This document shows, piece after piece, positions 8,321 through 14,219 of a DNA stretch of 64,000 nt (its first letter is position 1; every line of letters begins with the position of its first letter). The DNA lies in the NCBI GenBank assembly GCA_013822015.1, contig PNJU01000002.1, positions 1 through 64,000 on the forward strand, in the 5' to 3' direction. The stretch is from Candidatus Puniceispirillum sp. Its GTDB lineage: Bacteria > Pseudomonadota > Alphaproteobacteria > Caedimonadales > UBA1908. The position numbers were made by a program, and so were the translations under genes. The notes beneath the pieces were generated by a model, which saw nothing but the letters and a program-made list of their open reading frames with translations, ran no database searches and had not been told where the DNA came from.

Positions 8321-9445
8321 CTATTCTTGGAATCTGACAATCTTGAGGGCGTTAAAGTTGGTGACGTCACCACCTACACGCTTGACCGTGTAAAACTCCA
8401 CGTAGGGCTTGGCGCTATATGGATCGCGAAGCACATAGGTCCCTGCCCTATCAACGATCTGATAAGCTTCCTTGAAGTTTCCAAACACAATGGGACTAGA
8501 AGCTGTTCCTGATTTAAGCTCAGGCATGCCTTCCACAACAACAACAGGATATCCACAAAGTGTTTCCGGTGCGCCAGCACCAAGGCCGCCTTGCCACAGG
8601 TACTGGCCATTAGCGTCCTTGAGGCGACGTACTGCCGCGCGCGCAGAAGGTGACATCACCCAGACGGCACCTTGTGCGTAACGTGGATCAAGGGCCTCAA
8701 CGGTTGCCATCAGGATATCCGCTGGGTTTTCGCCCGCAAAAGCGCCGTTGGCACCTGTGACAAGATGCTCAAAGGTCTCCGGATCACGTGTGCTGCCCGT
8801 TGCGGAGGCGTAATGCAGGAATCCGCGCGGCTTATTTTCACCATCACCACTGATGAACGCAGCGTTTTCCAGTTGTGCCATGCGGCGCGCAATTTTGTCA
8901 GCAAGCCACGCTTCCACATCAATGAGGGAGTCCTCAAGGAGCTTCTGTGTCGCCCTTGGGCGCGCATAAAGCTCATTCACAGCAATGCGTTTTTTCAGCA
9001 AGCGAGGTGTTGCTGTTTCTTGACGGTTTCCTGTCTCACTGACCCAGCCAGCTTCTTCGCCGTCTTGGGACAAAAGAATCTCAACGGCACTTGCTGAGAT
9101 GGCCATCACACTTGCAAGCTGACGAATACTGGAGATGCTTTGAAGATCCTGCTGAATTTGGTCCGACAACACCTGCGGGACAAGGTATCCACCATCTACG
9201 TCCGACCCAACGCTTAGGGACTTGGACACGTGCGCCACTGACAGCGCGTGTGTGTCACCCTTGCGCAGGTAAGAGCCAAAGGCGCTCTTGTAGGCACAAA
9301 TGTCTTCATCCTGGGCGCTTGCGCTTAGGGCCGGACGCCGTGCCAAGCCTTTTTGCTCAAGCTTGTTCAGCCGCGTATTTTGCTTCACCTTGAAGTCCTC
9401 GAAGGACTTTGTCAGTTCTTCGACGGAGTTAATAATGTGTTCCAT
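8321..9445 (-). CDS. HK97-family major capsid protein
   Basis: A 374-residue capsid protein. A short charged helical N-terminus (about residues 5-40, the delta/scaffold-like part) is followed by the HK97 fold: GGYLVPQVLSDQI, the axial region around IRQLASVMAIS, AAFISGDGENKPRGFL, and the C-terminal GYPVVVVEGMP and VKRVGGDVTNFNALKIVRF. The ATG at 9445 has a perfect AGGAGG four bases upstream, so I prefer it over the start nine codons earlier. The delta domain is shorter than in HK97, as in gene-transfer-agent-like capsids. The neighbouring prohead protease would trim it. Confidence 0.92.
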   Translation of the reverse strand: MEHIINSVEELTKSFEDFKVKQNTRLNKLEQKGLARRPALSASAQDEDICAYKSAFGSYLRKGDTHALSVAHVSKSLSVGSDVDGGYLVPQVLSDQIQQDLQSISSIRQLASVMAISASAVEILLSQDGEEAGWVSETGNRQETATPRLLKKRIAVNELYARPRATQKLLEDSLIDVEAWLADKIARRMAQLENAAFISGDGENKPRGFLHYASATGSTRDPETFEHLVTGANGAFAGENPADILMATVEALDPRYAQGAVWVMSPSARAAVRRLKDANGQYLWQGGLGAGAPETLCGYPVVVVEGMPELKSGTASSPIVFGNFKEAYQIVDRAGTYVLRDPYSAKPYVEFYTVKRVGGDVTNFNALKIVRFQE

Positions 9446-9689
9446 GAAACCTCCTGTTATGTTGAGAGTCACATACTTTTTTGACTCTGCCTTATCTTGT
9501 AAGAATTATCCCTCTACTTGACAAAGGGATTTGTAAATAATTTTGTGCTTATTTTTCAATGAGATTGTTATTTGATAAGCTTGACGAGTAAGATGTGTTG
9601 AGAGGCGGCGCTTTCTCGCTAAACACTTTTTTTTGGGAAGGCAGGAAACAGCATCAGCAGAGGTAGACTTTTAATATATAGGATCATCT
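9446..9689. other. AT-rich non-coding gap between capsid and the secreted Cys-rich gene
   Basis: No ORF is supported here. On the minus strand there is a candidate promoter-like TTGTCA followed 17 bases later by TACAAG, about 60 bases before the capsid start. That would give the capsid its own transcript, but the match is weak. Confidence 0.35.
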
Positions 9690-10082
9690 TTACCTGTTGA
9701 TTGACTCGTTGCTTGAGTATACCTTTTCGAGAGCTTCGTCGAAGGCTGTCCTATTTATACAATTAGGTTCATCCTTATTTTCTTTTTGTGTGGTGCAGTA
9801 TTTTGCAGCCGTATCGGTGTTCTCTTTATTCAAGATCACATGTTTGCCTGCGCAACACTGACACCGCATGAATTCTGTAAACCTGCTGTTTGCGCATCTT
9901 GTTGATTTAGTGATATTTTCCGATACCTGATACTTGTGAGATTTCATAAGTCTGCCCATTGTCTCATTTTGATAATAGACCTTAAAGCTCTCGCGAAGCG
10001 TCCAGGACTGTGCCTGCCCACACATGAAGAGACAAAGAAGAAGACCACACACCCACTGCATTGTTTTTGCCTCTTGGTTCAT
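9690..10082 (-). CDS. Small secreted Cys-rich protein of unknown function
   Basis: A 130-residue protein with a clear signal peptide (MQWVCGLLLCLFMCGQAQSW, starting at residue 8). The mature part is about 105 residues and contains a Cys cluster (RCQCCAGKH) plus further Cys residues, suggesting disulfides in the envelope or outside the cell. It lies between the prohead protease and capsid genes, on the same strand but with gaps of 65 and 244 bases. That is unusual, because these two genes are normally adjacent. Its AT-richer sequence also differs from the flanking phage genes. It is probably a cargo (moron-like) gene. Start is ambiguous between 10082 and 10061. Confidence 0.6.
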   Translation of the reverse strand: MNQEAKTMQWVCGLLLCLFMCGQAQSWTLRESFKVYYQNETMGRLMKSHKYQVSENITKSTRCANSRFTEFMRCQCCAGKHVILNKENTDTAAKYCTTQKENKDEPNCINRTAFDEALEKVYSSNESINR

Positions 10083-10147
10083 TATTGCCTAAAATACAAG
10101 AGATAAATTAACAATGAATTAATGCGTGGCCTTGCCTCTTGGGGGCC

Positions 10148-10684
10148 CTACAGGCTTCTCAAGGTCATGATGGCGTTTTGGATGCTCTCTTGCAGACGCA
10201 TTTGATAATCATTCAAGATGCCATGTCCCTTTACCGCCAGCACCTTTGCCTTATCGTTGGCGGCAAAGGTAACAAGGGAGATCTCAAGGAGCTCAAGCTC
10301 TTTGAGTGTGCGCACTTTCTCGCGCTCACAAAAGGACGCACTGACGACTTGGCATCCAATGGACAGGCCTGAAACAACGCCTTTTTTCATGAGCGTATGC
10401 GCCTCGCGTCCCCTGCGTAGATCCATGAGAAGTTGCCCTTCCACAAAGAGGCCCTTTTGATCCTCCTTGATGGATTGCCACACGCCAATGGGCTCCTTTG
10501 TGTCGTGCTGCCACAGCATTTTCGGCATGTCGTCTCCCTTGTGGAGCGACTTCTCGAAGGCACCTCTTTCCACCCTGTCCTTTTGCCGATCGACAACGTC
10601 AAAAACGCTGGCATACCCGCAGAAATATCCCTCTTCTTGAATGTCATTCAGGCGCAGTTGTCCCTTTAAAATAAAATTACTCAC
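10148..10684 (-). CDS. HK97-family prohead protease
   Basis: A 178-residue serine protease that matures the capsid (U35/HK97 gp4-like). It shows GYASVFDVVDRQKDRVERGAF, then the His-containing MLWQHDTKEPIGVW, and the Ser-containing VVSGLSIG, the expected order of catalytic His and Ser. The GTG start at 10684 has GGAGG five bases upstream. It lies 54 bases after the portal gene. In comparable cassettes the capsid gene follows immediately; here a secreted protein intervenes. Confidence 0.9.
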   Translation of the reverse strand: MSNFILKGQLRLNDIQEEGYFCGYASVFDVVDRQKDRVERGAFEKSLHKGDDMPKMLWQHDTKEPIGVWQSIKEDQKGLFVEGQLLMDLRRGREAHTLMKKGVVSGLSIGCQVVSASFCEREKVRTLKELELLEISLVTFAANDKAKVLAVKGHGILNDYQMRLQESIQNAIMTLRSL

Positions 10685-10738
10685 GTGAACCTCCGTTATT
10701 TTTTATTATGTTTTTTATTCTCGCTTAAAGACGGATGA

Positions 10739-11911
10739 CTATAAGTTGTCTCCGCCTTCAATGGGTGGATACCCCATGGCCTTGCGCTTTTCATTGATGG
10801 TAAGAAAGGTTGCGCTGGCAAACTTTGTCCACACCTCTTCGCGGCGCGTGGCCAAGGCAGGGATCGCGTCCAGATGGTACCCAAGCCTTAAGTGCTCCCC
10901 AAAGGCTGGACAAAGCCAGCGGTTGAACTCGTCAATGAGATGATCCAAGAGGGGTAACACCGTGTCCTCCCACAGGTGATACCTGGCCTCTTTGTAGTTG
11001 GAAAAAGTCGCGTCTCCTGGAACGCCTGCCAGCATGGGTGGCACGCCGTAAGCCTGGGCAATTTCGCGCGCCGAGAGCTTTTTCCCTTCAATAAAATCAA
11101 GATCACGCGGAGAAAGTCCCATTTCTTGCCAGCGGAACTCACCTTCCAAAACCATGACACGACCTGCGTTCTGGTGCCCTTCGTAAAGGGATTGCAGTGT
11201 GTTTTTAAGATCCACGCGCTGCTCTTCCGTAAGCGGCACGTCGTGTGGGTCACCGCCCACAATGAGGGCGCCTGACGGCCTGCCCCCATTTTGCAGAAGG
11301 GCAAGGTTGTGGCCCGCAACGGTATTGTGCTGGTCAATGGCTTGGGCTGCCGCTTCCAGCGGGCTCATGCCATACCAATCATTAAGGGGATTGAAGAACT
11401 TGAGATGGAGCACGTCTTTCAAAATCCGACTTTGCCCATTAACGGTGTATTCGTATCCGGCAGGCGTACCGTCCGCGTTGGGAATGACCTTCACACGGTC
11501 AGGGCGAAGTGTGTGAAGCTCTGCCACCTCGCCGTTGTCAAAGCGCACCGCCTCCACATAGGCGTTACCCGCAAGAAGGAGATACGCCGTCACGCTTTCC
11601 ATGAAGGCTGCACCGGCTTGGGATGGGTTTGGCGCGTGCAAAAGATCAAGAAGTGGGTGCAGGCTGAGCTCATCACTGCCCTCATAAAGGCGCCACGGGA
11701 CGCTTGCAACGCCCCTTGAAATAAGATTGACGGCTCGGTAGGCGATTACATTCTTGTGGTATCCTTCCTGGGACAATTGATCATAGCGCCTTGGTGTCCA
11801 CACGGGCCTGCCGACACTTTGGCAGGCAATCATTGTGCCTGCTTGGCTTGCCTTTTGAAGGTCTGCTTCCTTGGCGCGCCCCTCCATCAACTTTTTTATA
11901 AACTGTTTCAT
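10739..11911 (-). CDS. HK97-family phage portal protein
   Basis: A 390-residue portal subunit that would form the DNA entry ring of the capsid. Family signs are YRAVNLISRGVASVPWRLYEG near residue 55-75, HPLLDLLHAPNPSQAG, LLLAGNAYVEAVR, LHLKFFNPLNDWYGMSPLEAA, and the C-terminal AREIAQAYGVPPMLAGV. I use the ATG at 11911, which has GAGG six bases upstream. An alternative GTG at 11950 would lie inside a terminator stem. It is the first gene of the cassette: no terminase gene precedes it, because a terminator and an unrelated transporter gene lie upstream. Confidence 0.93.
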   Translation of the reverse strand: MKQFIKKLMEGRAKEADLQKASQAGTMIACQSVGRPVWTPRRYDQLSQEGYHKNVIAYRAVNLISRGVASVPWRLYEGSDELSLHPLLDLLHAPNPSQAGAAFMESVTAYLLLAGNAYVEAVRFDNGEVAELHTLRPDRVKVIPNADGTPAGYEYTVNGQSRILKDVLHLKFFNPLNDWYGMSPLEAAAQAIDQHNTVAGHNLALLQNGGRPSGALIVGGDPHDVPLTEEQRVDLKNTLQSLYEGHQNAGRVMVLEGEFRWQEMGLSPRDLDFIEGKKLSAREIAQAYGVPPMLAGVPGDATFSNYKEARYHLWEDTVLPLLDHLIDEFNRWLCPAFGEHLRLGYHLDAIPALATRREEVWTKFASATFLTINEKRKAMGYPPIEGGDNL

Positions 11912-11934
11912 GAATTCCTCGCTGTTTATCCCAT

Positions 11935-11955
11935 AAAAAAAGCCCCGCACGGGGC
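11935..11955 (-). terminator. Rho-independent terminator
   Basis: Read on the minus strand, GCCCC-loop-GGGGC is followed by seven T residues. It lies between the solute-binding protein gene and the portal gene, so it ends transcription from the former and separates the phage cassette from it. Confidence 0.8.
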
Positions 11956-11992: not shown

Positions 11993-13012
11993 TTAAGAAT
12001 TGTCCCGTTTTGGCACAAGCGGGAGGCTTTCATTTTTCTTATTTGCAAGGGCCAGCACGTCTTTTGGGAAGGTGATGCCAATCTTCTTTGCAACGCTTTC
12101 ATTGATAACGAGGGCATTTTCTTTGGGAAAGCCCACGTCCATTTGGCCTGGTGAGTCCCCTTTCAAGACGCGCACGATCATCTGTCCTGTTTGTCTGCCA
12201 AGCTGGTATTGATCGGGACCAAGGGCGGCAAGCGCTCCTTGGGGCACCATGTCCGTATCGCTGACAAACAAAGGAATCTTAAGGCTTGTTGCAACCTTGG
12301 CAATACTTGAAAAGCCCGCCAACGCCGTGTTGTCGTTGTCCACATACAGGGCGTCTACGCGCGTGGCAAGTGACTTTGCAGCCTGGGCAACCTCTGTGGT
12401 TTTGGAGGCTGCCGCTTGCACCAAAGTAATGCCCATTTCCCTTGCGGCCACCTCTAACAGCTTGTAGGCGGCCACAGAATTTGCGTCCCCGGGATTGAGC
12501 ACCACGCCTAGACGCTTCATGTTCGGGCATATTTTTATAAAGAGTGCCAGCTGATCTACCCTAGAGGACGCGTTACTCACTCCGCTCACACGTCCACCAG
12601 GTGCTTGGAGTTTTGCCACAAGCTTTGCGCTTAAGGGATCCGTGATGCTGGAAAAAATAAGGGGGATCTGTGTGCCTGCGGTTCCTTTGAGGGCGCTTTG
12701 GGCCATGGGTGTGCCAAGGGCCACAATGACATCAGCCGTTACCCCCTTGCATTTGCTTGCAATTTGAAGGGCTGTGCCTACCTGTCCCTGGGCATTTTCA
12801 AGGAAAATGCGTGCGCCCTTCCCGTCCGTATATCCTGCCAAGGCAAGCTCATCAAGGATTCCCTGACGTGTGGCATCAAGGGCGGGGTGTGCAACAATTT
12901 GCGAGAGACAGATGGTCGGCTGTGATGGTGATGAAAAAGTAGAGGTAATAAATACAATAGAAAAAGATAAGAAAACAGAACTAAGACGGATAAACCTGGA
13001 TAAGACAAACAT
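11993..13012 (-). CDS. ABC transporter substrate-binding protein, ABC_sub_bind (TrpX-like) family
   Basis: A 339-residue periplasmic solute-binding protein. A signal peptide covers about the first 28 residues. It is followed by ICLSQIVAHPALDATRQGI, VIVALGTPMAQSAL, IPLIFSSITDPL, GRVSGVSN and ALYVDNDNTA, typical of Pfam ABC_sub_bind (PF04392), whose characterised members bind aromatic amino acids. The ATG at 13012 has AGGAG eight bases upstream. No permease or ATPase gene follows, since a terminator comes next; partners must be elsewhere. A His-rich leader peptide lies 29 bases upstream on the same strand, suggesting control by histidine supply. Confidence 0.85.
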   Translation of the reverse strand: MFVLSRFIRLSSVFLSFSIVFITSTFSSPSQPTICLSQIVAHPALDATRQGILDELALAGYTDGKGARIFLENAQGQVGTALQIASKCKGVTADVIVALGTPMAQSALKGTAGTQIPLIFSSITDPLSAKLVAKLQAPGGRVSGVSNASSRVDQLALFIKICPNMKRLGVVLNPGDANSVAAYKLLEVAAREMGITLVQAAASKTTEVAQAAKSLATRVDALYVDNDNTALAGFSSIAKVATSLKIPLFVSDTDMVPQGALAALGPDQYQLGRQTGQMIVRVLKGDSPGQMDVGFPKENALVINESVAKKIGITFPKDVLALANKKNESLPLVPKRDNS

Positions 13013-13041
13013 TAAACAAACTCCTAAATACAATCAAATTT

Positions 13042-13095
13042 TTACGCATAATAAACTCCTTGTGTTTGATGATGATGGTGATGATGAAGTTGCAT
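13042..13095 (-). CDS. His-rich leader peptide (17 residues, six consecutive His)
   Basis: The ORF encodes MQLHHHHHHQTQGVYYA and stop. It has a near-perfect ribosome binding site (AAAAGGAGGAT, six bases before the ATG), and its stop lies 29 bases before the ATG of the solute-binding protein gene. The six His codons are mixed (CAT and CAC), not a pure repeat. Seven consecutive His in hisL of enterobacteria make ribosome stalling at low charged tRNA-His the obvious model. There is no room for a terminator hairpin between leader and gene, so any control would more likely act on translation initiation. AGGAGTTT occurs twice, before the gene start and just inside the leader end; a possible partner (ctcct on the transcript) lies at 13194-13198. 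Confidence 0.6.
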   Translation of the reverse strand: MQLHHHHHHQTQGVYYA

Positions 13096-13269
13096 GTGTT
13101 TATCCTCCTTTTGAATTACGCAAAATGCACAGATATTAAGCCAGATTCTGCCTGTCCGAATCAAGAACAAAAAAGCATGTATGCCATTTTGGCAGGAGAT
13201 GAACGGGAGTGTGTAAGAATTGATTTCCATTGAGCCGTGATCACTTAAACTCACTGAGTGCTTATATTC

Positions 13270-13299
13270 TTGACAAAATGTCTCGCTCAAAGGTATACG
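13270..13299 (+). promoter_or_regulatory. Sigma-70-type promoter for the secreted GNAT gene
   Basis: TTGACA at 13270-13275 and TATACG at 13294-13299 with an 18-base spacer, about 30 bases before the ATG at 13329. The -35 box is a perfect match. Confidence 0.6.
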
Positions 13300-13328
13300 T
13301 AGGCGCGTGATTTCAGATAAATTATATT

Positions 13329-14219
13329 ATGCGCCGTCTTCTTCTTTTTACTCTTTTTATTACTCATGTTTGTGCCTTTGCAAGCCCAGAGATCCAGGTT
13401 TTTTCCTTTGAAAACCCAGAAGCGGCGGAAAACATCCGTGTGCGCTTATCGGGCATGACCTCACGTGGCACGCCGTGGCAAAGCCGCAATATCTCAGGTG
13501 ATGATTTGCCCCTTCTCATGGGGCTCTATGGTGATGAGAAGGTCATGGCGCACTTTGCGGGAGGCTTGACTCTTGAGCAAGCGCAGGTCGAGCGCCGTCT
13601 TGACACCTGGACGCGGCGCGCACGTGAAGGGGTGCCAATTGGTGCCTGGGTTATCGAATCTGAGATTGATGATAAACTGCGCCCCCTGGGCTTTGTGGCT
13701 GTGGCCGCACAACACGCACCTGGCTATGCTGAGATGGGGGGCATGCTGTTTCCAGAATTCCAAAGTCTGGGCATTGCAAGCAGCTTAATGCATGTGACTG
13801 TCAACATCTGGGCTCCGCGCGTGCGGTGGCACGGGCGCTTTGACCCCAATCCACGAGTGAGAGAAAAGTTCTGCTGTTTTGGGGGTAAGGCGCTGCAAGC
13901 ACTCTACGCGACAGCGTCCCCTGAAAATGAGCGTTCATGGCGCTCTCAGCGCTCCGCCGGATTTGTACCCATAGAACCAAATGCAGGGTCCATCACACTG
14001 AAAACTGAGGTCAAGACATACAAAGAGACGGCACAAGCCCTGACAGAGCTCTTTACGGCTGACGTGGGCTCGTTACCGTTTGATACCCTTTTTAGTTTCA
14101 AGGACCACAAAGGCATCGCGCACACGCTCTCCTACGTCAGTGAGTATAAGTGTGTGAAGTTTCACATGATGCGCACCGTTGAGGACTGGTTACCGAGCCG
14201 CATTAGCGCTAGGTTGTAG
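13329..14219 (+). CDS. Secreted GNAT-like N-acetyltransferase
   Basis: A 296-residue protein with a signal peptide (MRRLLLFTLFITHVCAFASP). The mature part opens with an acetyltransferase-like domain: RGTPWQSRNISGDDLPLLMG, then YGDEKVMAHFAGG with the TLEQAQ helix, GAWVIE, LGFVAVA and GMLFPEFQSLGIASSLM. That last stretch matches the strand-4/P-loop region of RimJ/RimL-type GNAT proteins (Q/R-x-x-G-x-A). The C-terminal 90 residues are unknown. GNAT enzymes need cytosolic acetyl-CoA, so export is odd and would suit an effector delivered to a host cell. The 3' end overlaps the convergent esterase gene by 30 bases. Confidence 0.7.
   Translation: MRRLLLFTLFITHVCAFASPEIQVFSFENPEAAENIRVRLSGMTSRGTPWQSRNISGDDLPLLMGLYGDEKVMAHFAGGLTLEQAQVERRLDTWTRRAREGVPIGAWVIESEIDDKLRPLGFVAVAAQHAPGYAEMGGMLFPEFQSLGIASSLMHVTVNIWAPRVRWHGRFDPNPRVREKFCCFGGKALQALYATASPENERSWRSQRSAGFVPIEPNAGSITLKTEVKTYKETAQALTELFTADVGSLPFDTLFSFKDHKGIAHTLSYVSEYKCVKFHMMRTVEDWLPSRISARL

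Follow-up and report, generated by a model that had tools for sequence, protein, structure and literature searches.

A six-histidine-codon leader ahead of a TrpX-like solute-binding protein gene points to a probable translational switch worked by ribosome traffic

Introduction

The leader peptides hisL and trpL stand at the head of biosynthetic operons and act by transcription attenuation. What, then, is a short open reading frame (ORF) with six consecutive His codons doing directly in front of a gene for a transport protein? We address this question for a TrpX-like solute-binding protein (SBP) gene in the window, by which we mean the whole 64,000-nucleotide stretch of alphaproteobacterial DNA that was analysed. 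Judged by its sequence, the leader is a member of a conserved family of putative amino-acid-sensing leaders in little-known alphaproteobacteria, and below we consider how it might act on the SBP gene.

Results

The leader and a second, overlapping reading frame

The SBP gene occupies positions 11993..13012 of the minus strand and encodes 339 amino acids from an ATG at 13012. Its product scores 269.3 bits against the ABC_sub_bind model PF04392 (cut-off 25.9; 5e-80), and its sole NCBIfam match is the TrpX equivalog NF041285, at 253.3 bits and under the 390-bit cut-off of that model. Behind the upstream in-frame stop codon, the first candidate start is TTG 13033 and the next is ATG 13012; we take the ATG as the start, the TTG being the less likely alternative. 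Directly 3' of the SBP gene lie phage-type portal, prohead protease and major capsid genes (8321-11950, minus strand), and the order SBP–portal–protease–capsid is kept in both relatives from the genus (L248 and L249; Pfam names were tested for genome G001). A search with Rfam at gathering scores returned two tRNAs and nothing else across the window.

ORF1 (13042..13095, minus strand; MQLHHHHHHQTQGVYYA) comprises 17 codons and is preceded by the Shine-Dalgarno sequence AAGGAGG at 13104..13110 (minus strand). It starts 83 nt 5' of the SBP ATG, and its stop leaves a gap of 29 nt to that ATG, which confirms the initial annotation of a 17-codon His-run ORF with a ribosome binding site 29 nt before an ABC_sub_bind gene. 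The six His codons, CAT CAT CAC CAT CAT CAT, have their first bases at -74 to -59 relative to the SBP ATG on the same strand. Runs of at least five CAY codons occur at two sites in the 1.98-Mb genome, the second of which lies within a 121-codon frame.

The tail of ORF1 contains a further Shine-Dalgarno sequence, AAGGAG (13056..13061, minus strand), and this belongs to ORF2 (12981..13049, minus strand; MRKNLIVFRSLFNVCLIQVYPS), which had been overlooked. The ATG of ORF2 overlaps the ORF1 stop by 8 nt, a length that fits because 4-nt and 8-nt ORF overlaps are reported to be enriched (PMC12548453). ORF2 passes over the SBP start, including the Shine-Dalgarno sequence AGGAG of the SBP gene at 13021..13025 (minus strand), and its stop codon begins 29 nt inside the SBP gene.

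Conservation within the genus

The other two genus genomes compared, G001 and G002, carry SBPs with 50-51% identity to the window SBP at the same locus, and the three genes form one starred clade of the SBP tree (support 97) in which all have His leaders. The leaders of G001 and G002, which begin MRHHHHPHHRLSEQIKSQ and MRHHYHPHHRLSEQIKSQ, start 82 nt before the SBP ATG and remain open to +38, as a single long frame across the SBP start; relative to the SBP gene, ORF2 uses that same frame. In the alignment of the three genomes, the stretch between the leader ATG and the SBP ATG contains one single-base gap. It reflects an extra base after the His codons in the window, and because of this base ORF1 ends early compared with its kin; the extra base may be a sequencing error. 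The same two-ORF plan is found at L164, from another order, where MRHHHHHHHIHKGDNA is followed through an ATGA overlap by an ORF2 that extends to +53.

A wider family of leaders

Homologs of the SBP are present in 11/11 genomes of the window's order, 17/17 of the G015 order and 42/42 of the G030 order. For some of these homologs the upstream region was also read: 281 genes were collected and 280 were tested by a rule, fixed after the first examples had been seen, that requires an ATG or GTG start, a Shine-Dalgarno sequence and a run of the residue in question. By this rule 33 of the 280 genes have His (H) leaders, whereas 20 shuffles gave 0.3 on average; one of the 33, at L189, looks like a false match. 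Paralogous SBP genes bear Trp (W), Tyr (Y) or Arg-type (R) leaders. The 31 genes from the window's order divide into 3 H, 5 W, 2 R, 1 Y and 20 without a leader; the 71 from the G015 order into 13 H, 17 W, 21 R and 20 without; and the 60 from the G030 order into 13 H, 1 W and 46 without. Other families of the class contributed 20 genes (1 H, 2 R, 17 none), named alphaproteobacterial metagenome-assembled genomes 12 (3 H, 1 W, 8 none) and other named organisms 86 (0 H, 2 R, 84 none). In a scan of named genomes the window protein used as sole query confirmed no relative; with a profile built from 7 proteins, at least 567 stretches were confirmed, of which the best 80 were kept.

Leader class follows the SBP tree: a quick tree of 202 SBPs needs 23 class changes compared with 74.8 after shuffling (0/200 shuffles as low), a figure inflated by near-copies. 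The initial annotation had named loss of the His codons beside preserved flanks as the sign of a repeat accident. On the contrary, the His-rich leader is kept in 3/3 genomes of the genus and in 15/17 of the G015 order, two of the latter through loci matching named contigs; within that order, no His-leader SBP was seen in G141 or in the incomplete G149. In the window's order, 3/11 genomes have a His-leader SBP. Among relatives CAT and CAC are swapped while the remainder of the leader diverges, that is, the sensor codons are conserved above the rest, as expected of a leader ORF.

These data also bear on the idea that the His-rich peptide is not an amino-acid sensor at all but a metal-binding peptide or the product of a repeat accident. 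His-rich peptides do bind metals, as is generally known. Nevertheless, in the paralogs runs of the Trp, Tyr or Arg type lie about as far from the start as the His run does, and we reject the metal-binding peptide on account of these sensor residues. The tails of the leaders are variable. A repeat accident is rejected given the mixture of codons (118 CAT and 19 CAC among the codons listed), the 33 H leaders against 0.3 in shuffles and the conservation within the genus. We regard either explanation as very improbable, and it is very likely that ORF1 of the window is a real His-sensing leader.

Several loci add to the variety of the family. The Arg-type class is the least sure, in that Arg, Phe and Leu all recur (LRLRL, FRFRSG); an FRFRSG or RFS motif recurs in the leaders of L200, L206, L178 and L050, from two orders. 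Mixed Trp/His leaders of the HWRWHH type (L044, L180, L193, L196, L199 and L226) end before the SBP start, are structured on average as a class, and may sense two amino acids at once. At L259, near base 1140 of the minus strand, five His codons are found in a short ORF that starts with TTG and lies ~70 nt before another open frame; it is possibly another His leader. L017 (genome G008) has a His-rich ORF before an SBP gene whose matches fall into two overlapping parts, as though the frame had been interrupted, and was left uncounted. TrpX-like SBP genes at L240, L005, L006, L009 and L024 stand directly behind an apparent TrpR-related gene (Pfam-tested in L240), and no leader was found before these five; the TrpR-related neighbour looks like a third control route for TrpX-like SBP genes.

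Sensor position and an open frame over the SBP start

Distances were taken from 80 of 85 leaders, with the doubtful L011, L028, L189, L082 and L088 removed and the starts of L034 and L171 corrected by hand. In the 24 His leaders that overlap the SBP gene, the last sensor codon lies at -59.0 on average from the SBP start (sd 5.1, range -77 to -53), and in the 19 overlapping Trp leaders at -58.0 (sd 3.0, range -67 to -55), with leader starts from -106 to -143. The position scatters more among Arg-type leaders (-58.3, sd 8.7, n=23) and among the 8 His leaders whose stop precedes the SBP start (-55.9, sd 10.0). Sensor codons therefore end ~58 nt before the SBP start irrespective of leader length. 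Given the usual size of a ribosome, one stalled on the His codons of the window should leave ~40 nt free before the SBP start.

At the other end, the overlapping H, R and Y leaders stop 16-59 nt within the SBP gene. For a test of the frame between sensor and start, the H, R and Y leaders were clustered to 22 representatives of 56; the six mixed His/Trp leaders, all of which end before the SBP start, were left out, and L164 is not among the representatives. The leader frame is open from the sensor to the SBP ATG in 21/22, where shuffles expect 6.0 (P 4.8e-12), compared with 4/22 for the third frame and 5/22 for the SBP frame. His leaders alone give 10/11 (expected 2.8, P 3.5e-6). The sole representative without an open frame is the window itself, where ORF2 crosses the SBP start; the leader frame of L164 is likewise not open, with a relay to its ORF2 through the ATGA overlap. 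Since ORF1 ends before the SBP start, occlusion of that start in the window requires translation of ORF2. The clustered Trp leaders are open in 6/10 (expected 3.3, P 0.066), with 8/11 for the third frame; the Trp class failed the test, and we therefore do not claim occlusion for it.

RNA structure

The leader has the consecutive His codons of hisL, but no terminator with antiterminator between leader and gene. A pattern scan of 12900-13400 found no terminator-like site, in agreement with the initial annotation, and the predicted fold of 12980-13180 is worse than 179 of 200 shuffles (z +1.23). Attenuation by a terminator is rejected on these two results. The earlier suspicion that the mechanism differs from classical attenuation gains further support from RNAalifold, which returned 0 consensus pairs for 12 His leaders.

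For 12 Trp leaders, RNAalifold instead returned a 9-pair stem that joins the Trp codons to bases just 5' of the SBP ribosome binding site, and none of its pairs shows a change on both sides. Mean folding z values separate the classes in the same way: +0.99 for His (n=26), -0.15 for Arg-type (n=23) and +1.08 for Tyr (n=1), against -1.68 for Trp (n=22) and -1.44 for mixed His/Trp leaders (n=8). The difference between the His, Arg-type and Tyr leaders and the Trp and mixed leaders has a P value of 2e-8, uncorrected for relatedness. Together with the frame test, these predictions suggest translational attenuation through a hairpin for the Trp class, and for the His class plain occlusion by ribosomes that pass. 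Stalling is predicted to make the SBP site more open by 0.04 for His, 0.08 for Arg-type, -0.01 for Tyr, 0.12 for Trp and 0.07 for mixed leaders, a difference between classes that is not significant (P 0.11).

Could the His leader nonetheless work through structure, with the His codons or their flanks paired to the SBP Shine-Dalgarno sequence until a stalled ribosome breaks the pairing? Such translational attenuation would account for the near-constant distance from sensor to start and has a precedent in the 12-sequence stem and the low z values of the Trp paralogs. Within the genus, 24 pairs are predicted from the three-sequence alignment, 3 of them changed on both sides, and G001 and G002 show a weak predicted pairing of the His codons with the SBP Shine-Dalgarno sequence. 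By our reading, however, the window breaks 4/9 pairs of the helix at that site. The His leaders are moreover on average less structured than their shuffles, as is the window leader, and 12 of them share no consensus pair. We consider structure-based attenuation unlikely for the His leader, and judge it fairly probable that the switch operates by ribosome occlusion without RNA structure. The proposal of the initial annotation that a second AGGAG becomes exposed comes near to this reading; the likely agent is ribosome traffic over the start and not a hairpin.

Amino-acid supply and transport

Pathway tests covered histidinol dehydrogenase (HisD), indole-glycerol-phosphate synthase and argininosuccinate synthase. 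HisD had no match in 14/14 genomes and was found in 13/14 controls; indole-glycerol-phosphate synthase also had no match in 14/14, and argininosuccinate synthase had none over the cut-off in 14/14, with weak part matches in 13.

Permeases of family PF02653 number one in 7/8 genomes and two in G003. The permease of the window's genome is encoded on another contig, with an ATPase adjoining and no SBP adjoining. The genome has two SBPs, that of the window with its His leader and one on contig 10 with a Trp leader (L002, 91161-92078); the latter leader is Trp-rich (...ARWWRWRN...) and overlaps the SBP start in a strongly folded region. A related permease adjoins an SBP in G003, G007, G015, G030 and G142, and this adjacency in five genomes makes it likely that the SBP partners a permease of this family. 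One permease/ATPase pair may serve several SBPs, as HisJ and ArgT share HisQMP. In view of the leader codons, the ligand of the window SBP is probably histidine.

Discussion

The proposed switch

Several results form the computed basis of our proposal: (i) the leader itself, (ii) its conservation, (iii) the near-fixed distance from sensor to start, (iv) the open frame in relatives, (v) the structure-free His class, (vi) the lack of a HisD match and (vii) the single permease. From these we infer the stall on the His codons, the direction of control and the occlusion. The reading that we favour, and regard as reasonably likely, is a histidine-responsive translational switch in which ribosomes passing along the leader block the SBP start and a stall frees it. 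Any ribosome that initiates at the leader has six His codons to translate. As long as charged tRNA-His is abundant, ribosomes would continue over the SBP Shine-Dalgarno sequence and start and terminate ~30 nt inside the SBP gene; in the window they would run on through ORF2, coupled to the ORF1 stop. The SBP start would then often be covered and little SBP made. Under histidine shortage, ribosomes would halt at the His codons, ~75-57 nt upstream; no more of them would then cross the SBP start, and the free start would allow SBP to be made. The SBP would in turn supply histidine to the single permease/ATPase pair of the genome, encoded elsewhere. That histidine shortage induces the SBP seems to us likely.

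The same arrangement might be read with the opposite sign, the leader delivering ribosomes to the SBP gene such that histidine shortage would lower SBP synthesis. Overlapping ORFs can be coupled, and the ORF1/ORF2 overlaps (8 nt in the window, ATGA at L164) have spacings typical of coupling; phage gene pairs are even reported to be coupled at overlaps of 38 and 50 nt (PMC12548453). The overlapping H, R and Y leaders, however, stop 16-59 nt inside the SBP gene, and the same source reports that longer overlaps generally weaken coupling, with none at 25 nt in one study (PMC12548453). The SBP binding site is weakly structured and seemingly needs no unwinding, and shutting off an importer during shortage of its substrate makes little sense in a genome that lacks HisD. 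We therefore hold positive coupling of this kind to be quite improbable.

Some observations also weigh against occlusion by passing ribosomes. The near-fixed distance from sensor to start is more than plain occlusion needs, ORF1 of the window ends early with L164 as a second such case, and the six mixed leaders end before the start. Further points on this side are the non-significant class difference in predicted openness, the weak pairing predicted in G001 and G002 (partly lost in the window), the near-neutral folding of the Arg-type leaders, and a leader rule fixed with the first examples already known. On a wider view, the chances seem to us about even that there is a whole family of structure-free traffic switches in which elongating ribosomes act as the repressor and a stall ~58 nt upstream as the inducer; His, Tyr and Arg-type paralogs would swap the sensor codons alone, Trp paralogs would use a hairpin, and one permease/ATPase core would be re-aimed by whichever SBP shortage induces. 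If true, ribosome traffic without RNA structure can be an amino-acid switch, and the family would show how a common transporter is adjusted to each of several amino acids in bacteria unable to synthesise them.

Comparison with known systems

Among the open-licence papers listed by literature searches, no title or abstract opening described amino-acid leader peptides before TrpX-like SBP genes. A terminator-based search reported His leader peptides before hisS paralogs and predicted 205 ABC-transporter genes to be under attenuation (PMC2965389). Those leaders, like hisL and trpL, share with ours a short ORF that has a ribosome binding site to itself, contains a run of codons for the amino acid being sensed, and lies ahead of a gene serving that amino acid. 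The present locus differs in that there is no terminator-like site, the controlled gene is a transport SBP and, in relatives, the leader overlaps the gene.

Mycobacterial poly-Cys leaderless short ORFs (Canestrari 2020) lie upstream of Cys-linked genes, and elongation speed on them is said to control the downstream gene (PMC9031893, PMC4633059). The run of one codon in a short ORF before genes linked to that amino acid is the same, whereas the leaders described here are led by Shine-Dalgarno sequences, address several amino acids among paralogs, and precede importer SBPs in alphaproteobacteria. In Staphylococcus aureus, the rbfL leader takes its cue from arginine supply and reportedly acts through leader ribosomes that directly obstruct the ribosome binding site downstream (PMC13009471). 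This direct block by leader ribosomes is what we propose as well, but the sign is opposite: in rbfL it is the paused ribosome that occupies the site, with repression upon starvation, while in our proposal ribosomes would stall ~58 nt upstream and block the site when in motion.

TrpX of the streptococcal trpXYZ genes (S. suis TrpX) is reported to be under a Trp T-box in an auxotrophic host (PMC9382623). It resembles the present case as a related SBP induced by shortage through tRNA charging in an auxotroph, and differs in that here a ribosome and codons would take the place of the T-box, the SBP gene stands apart from the permease and ATPase, and the amino acid is His and not Trp. T-box specifiers have been used to predict transporter substrates (PMC2494555), and the logic that leads from leader codons to an SBP substrate is the same. 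Just as those specifiers do, the leader codons indicate what each uncharacterised TrpX-like SBP is likely to bind, and they therefore provide testable ligands for SBPs that match the TrpX model below its cut-off.
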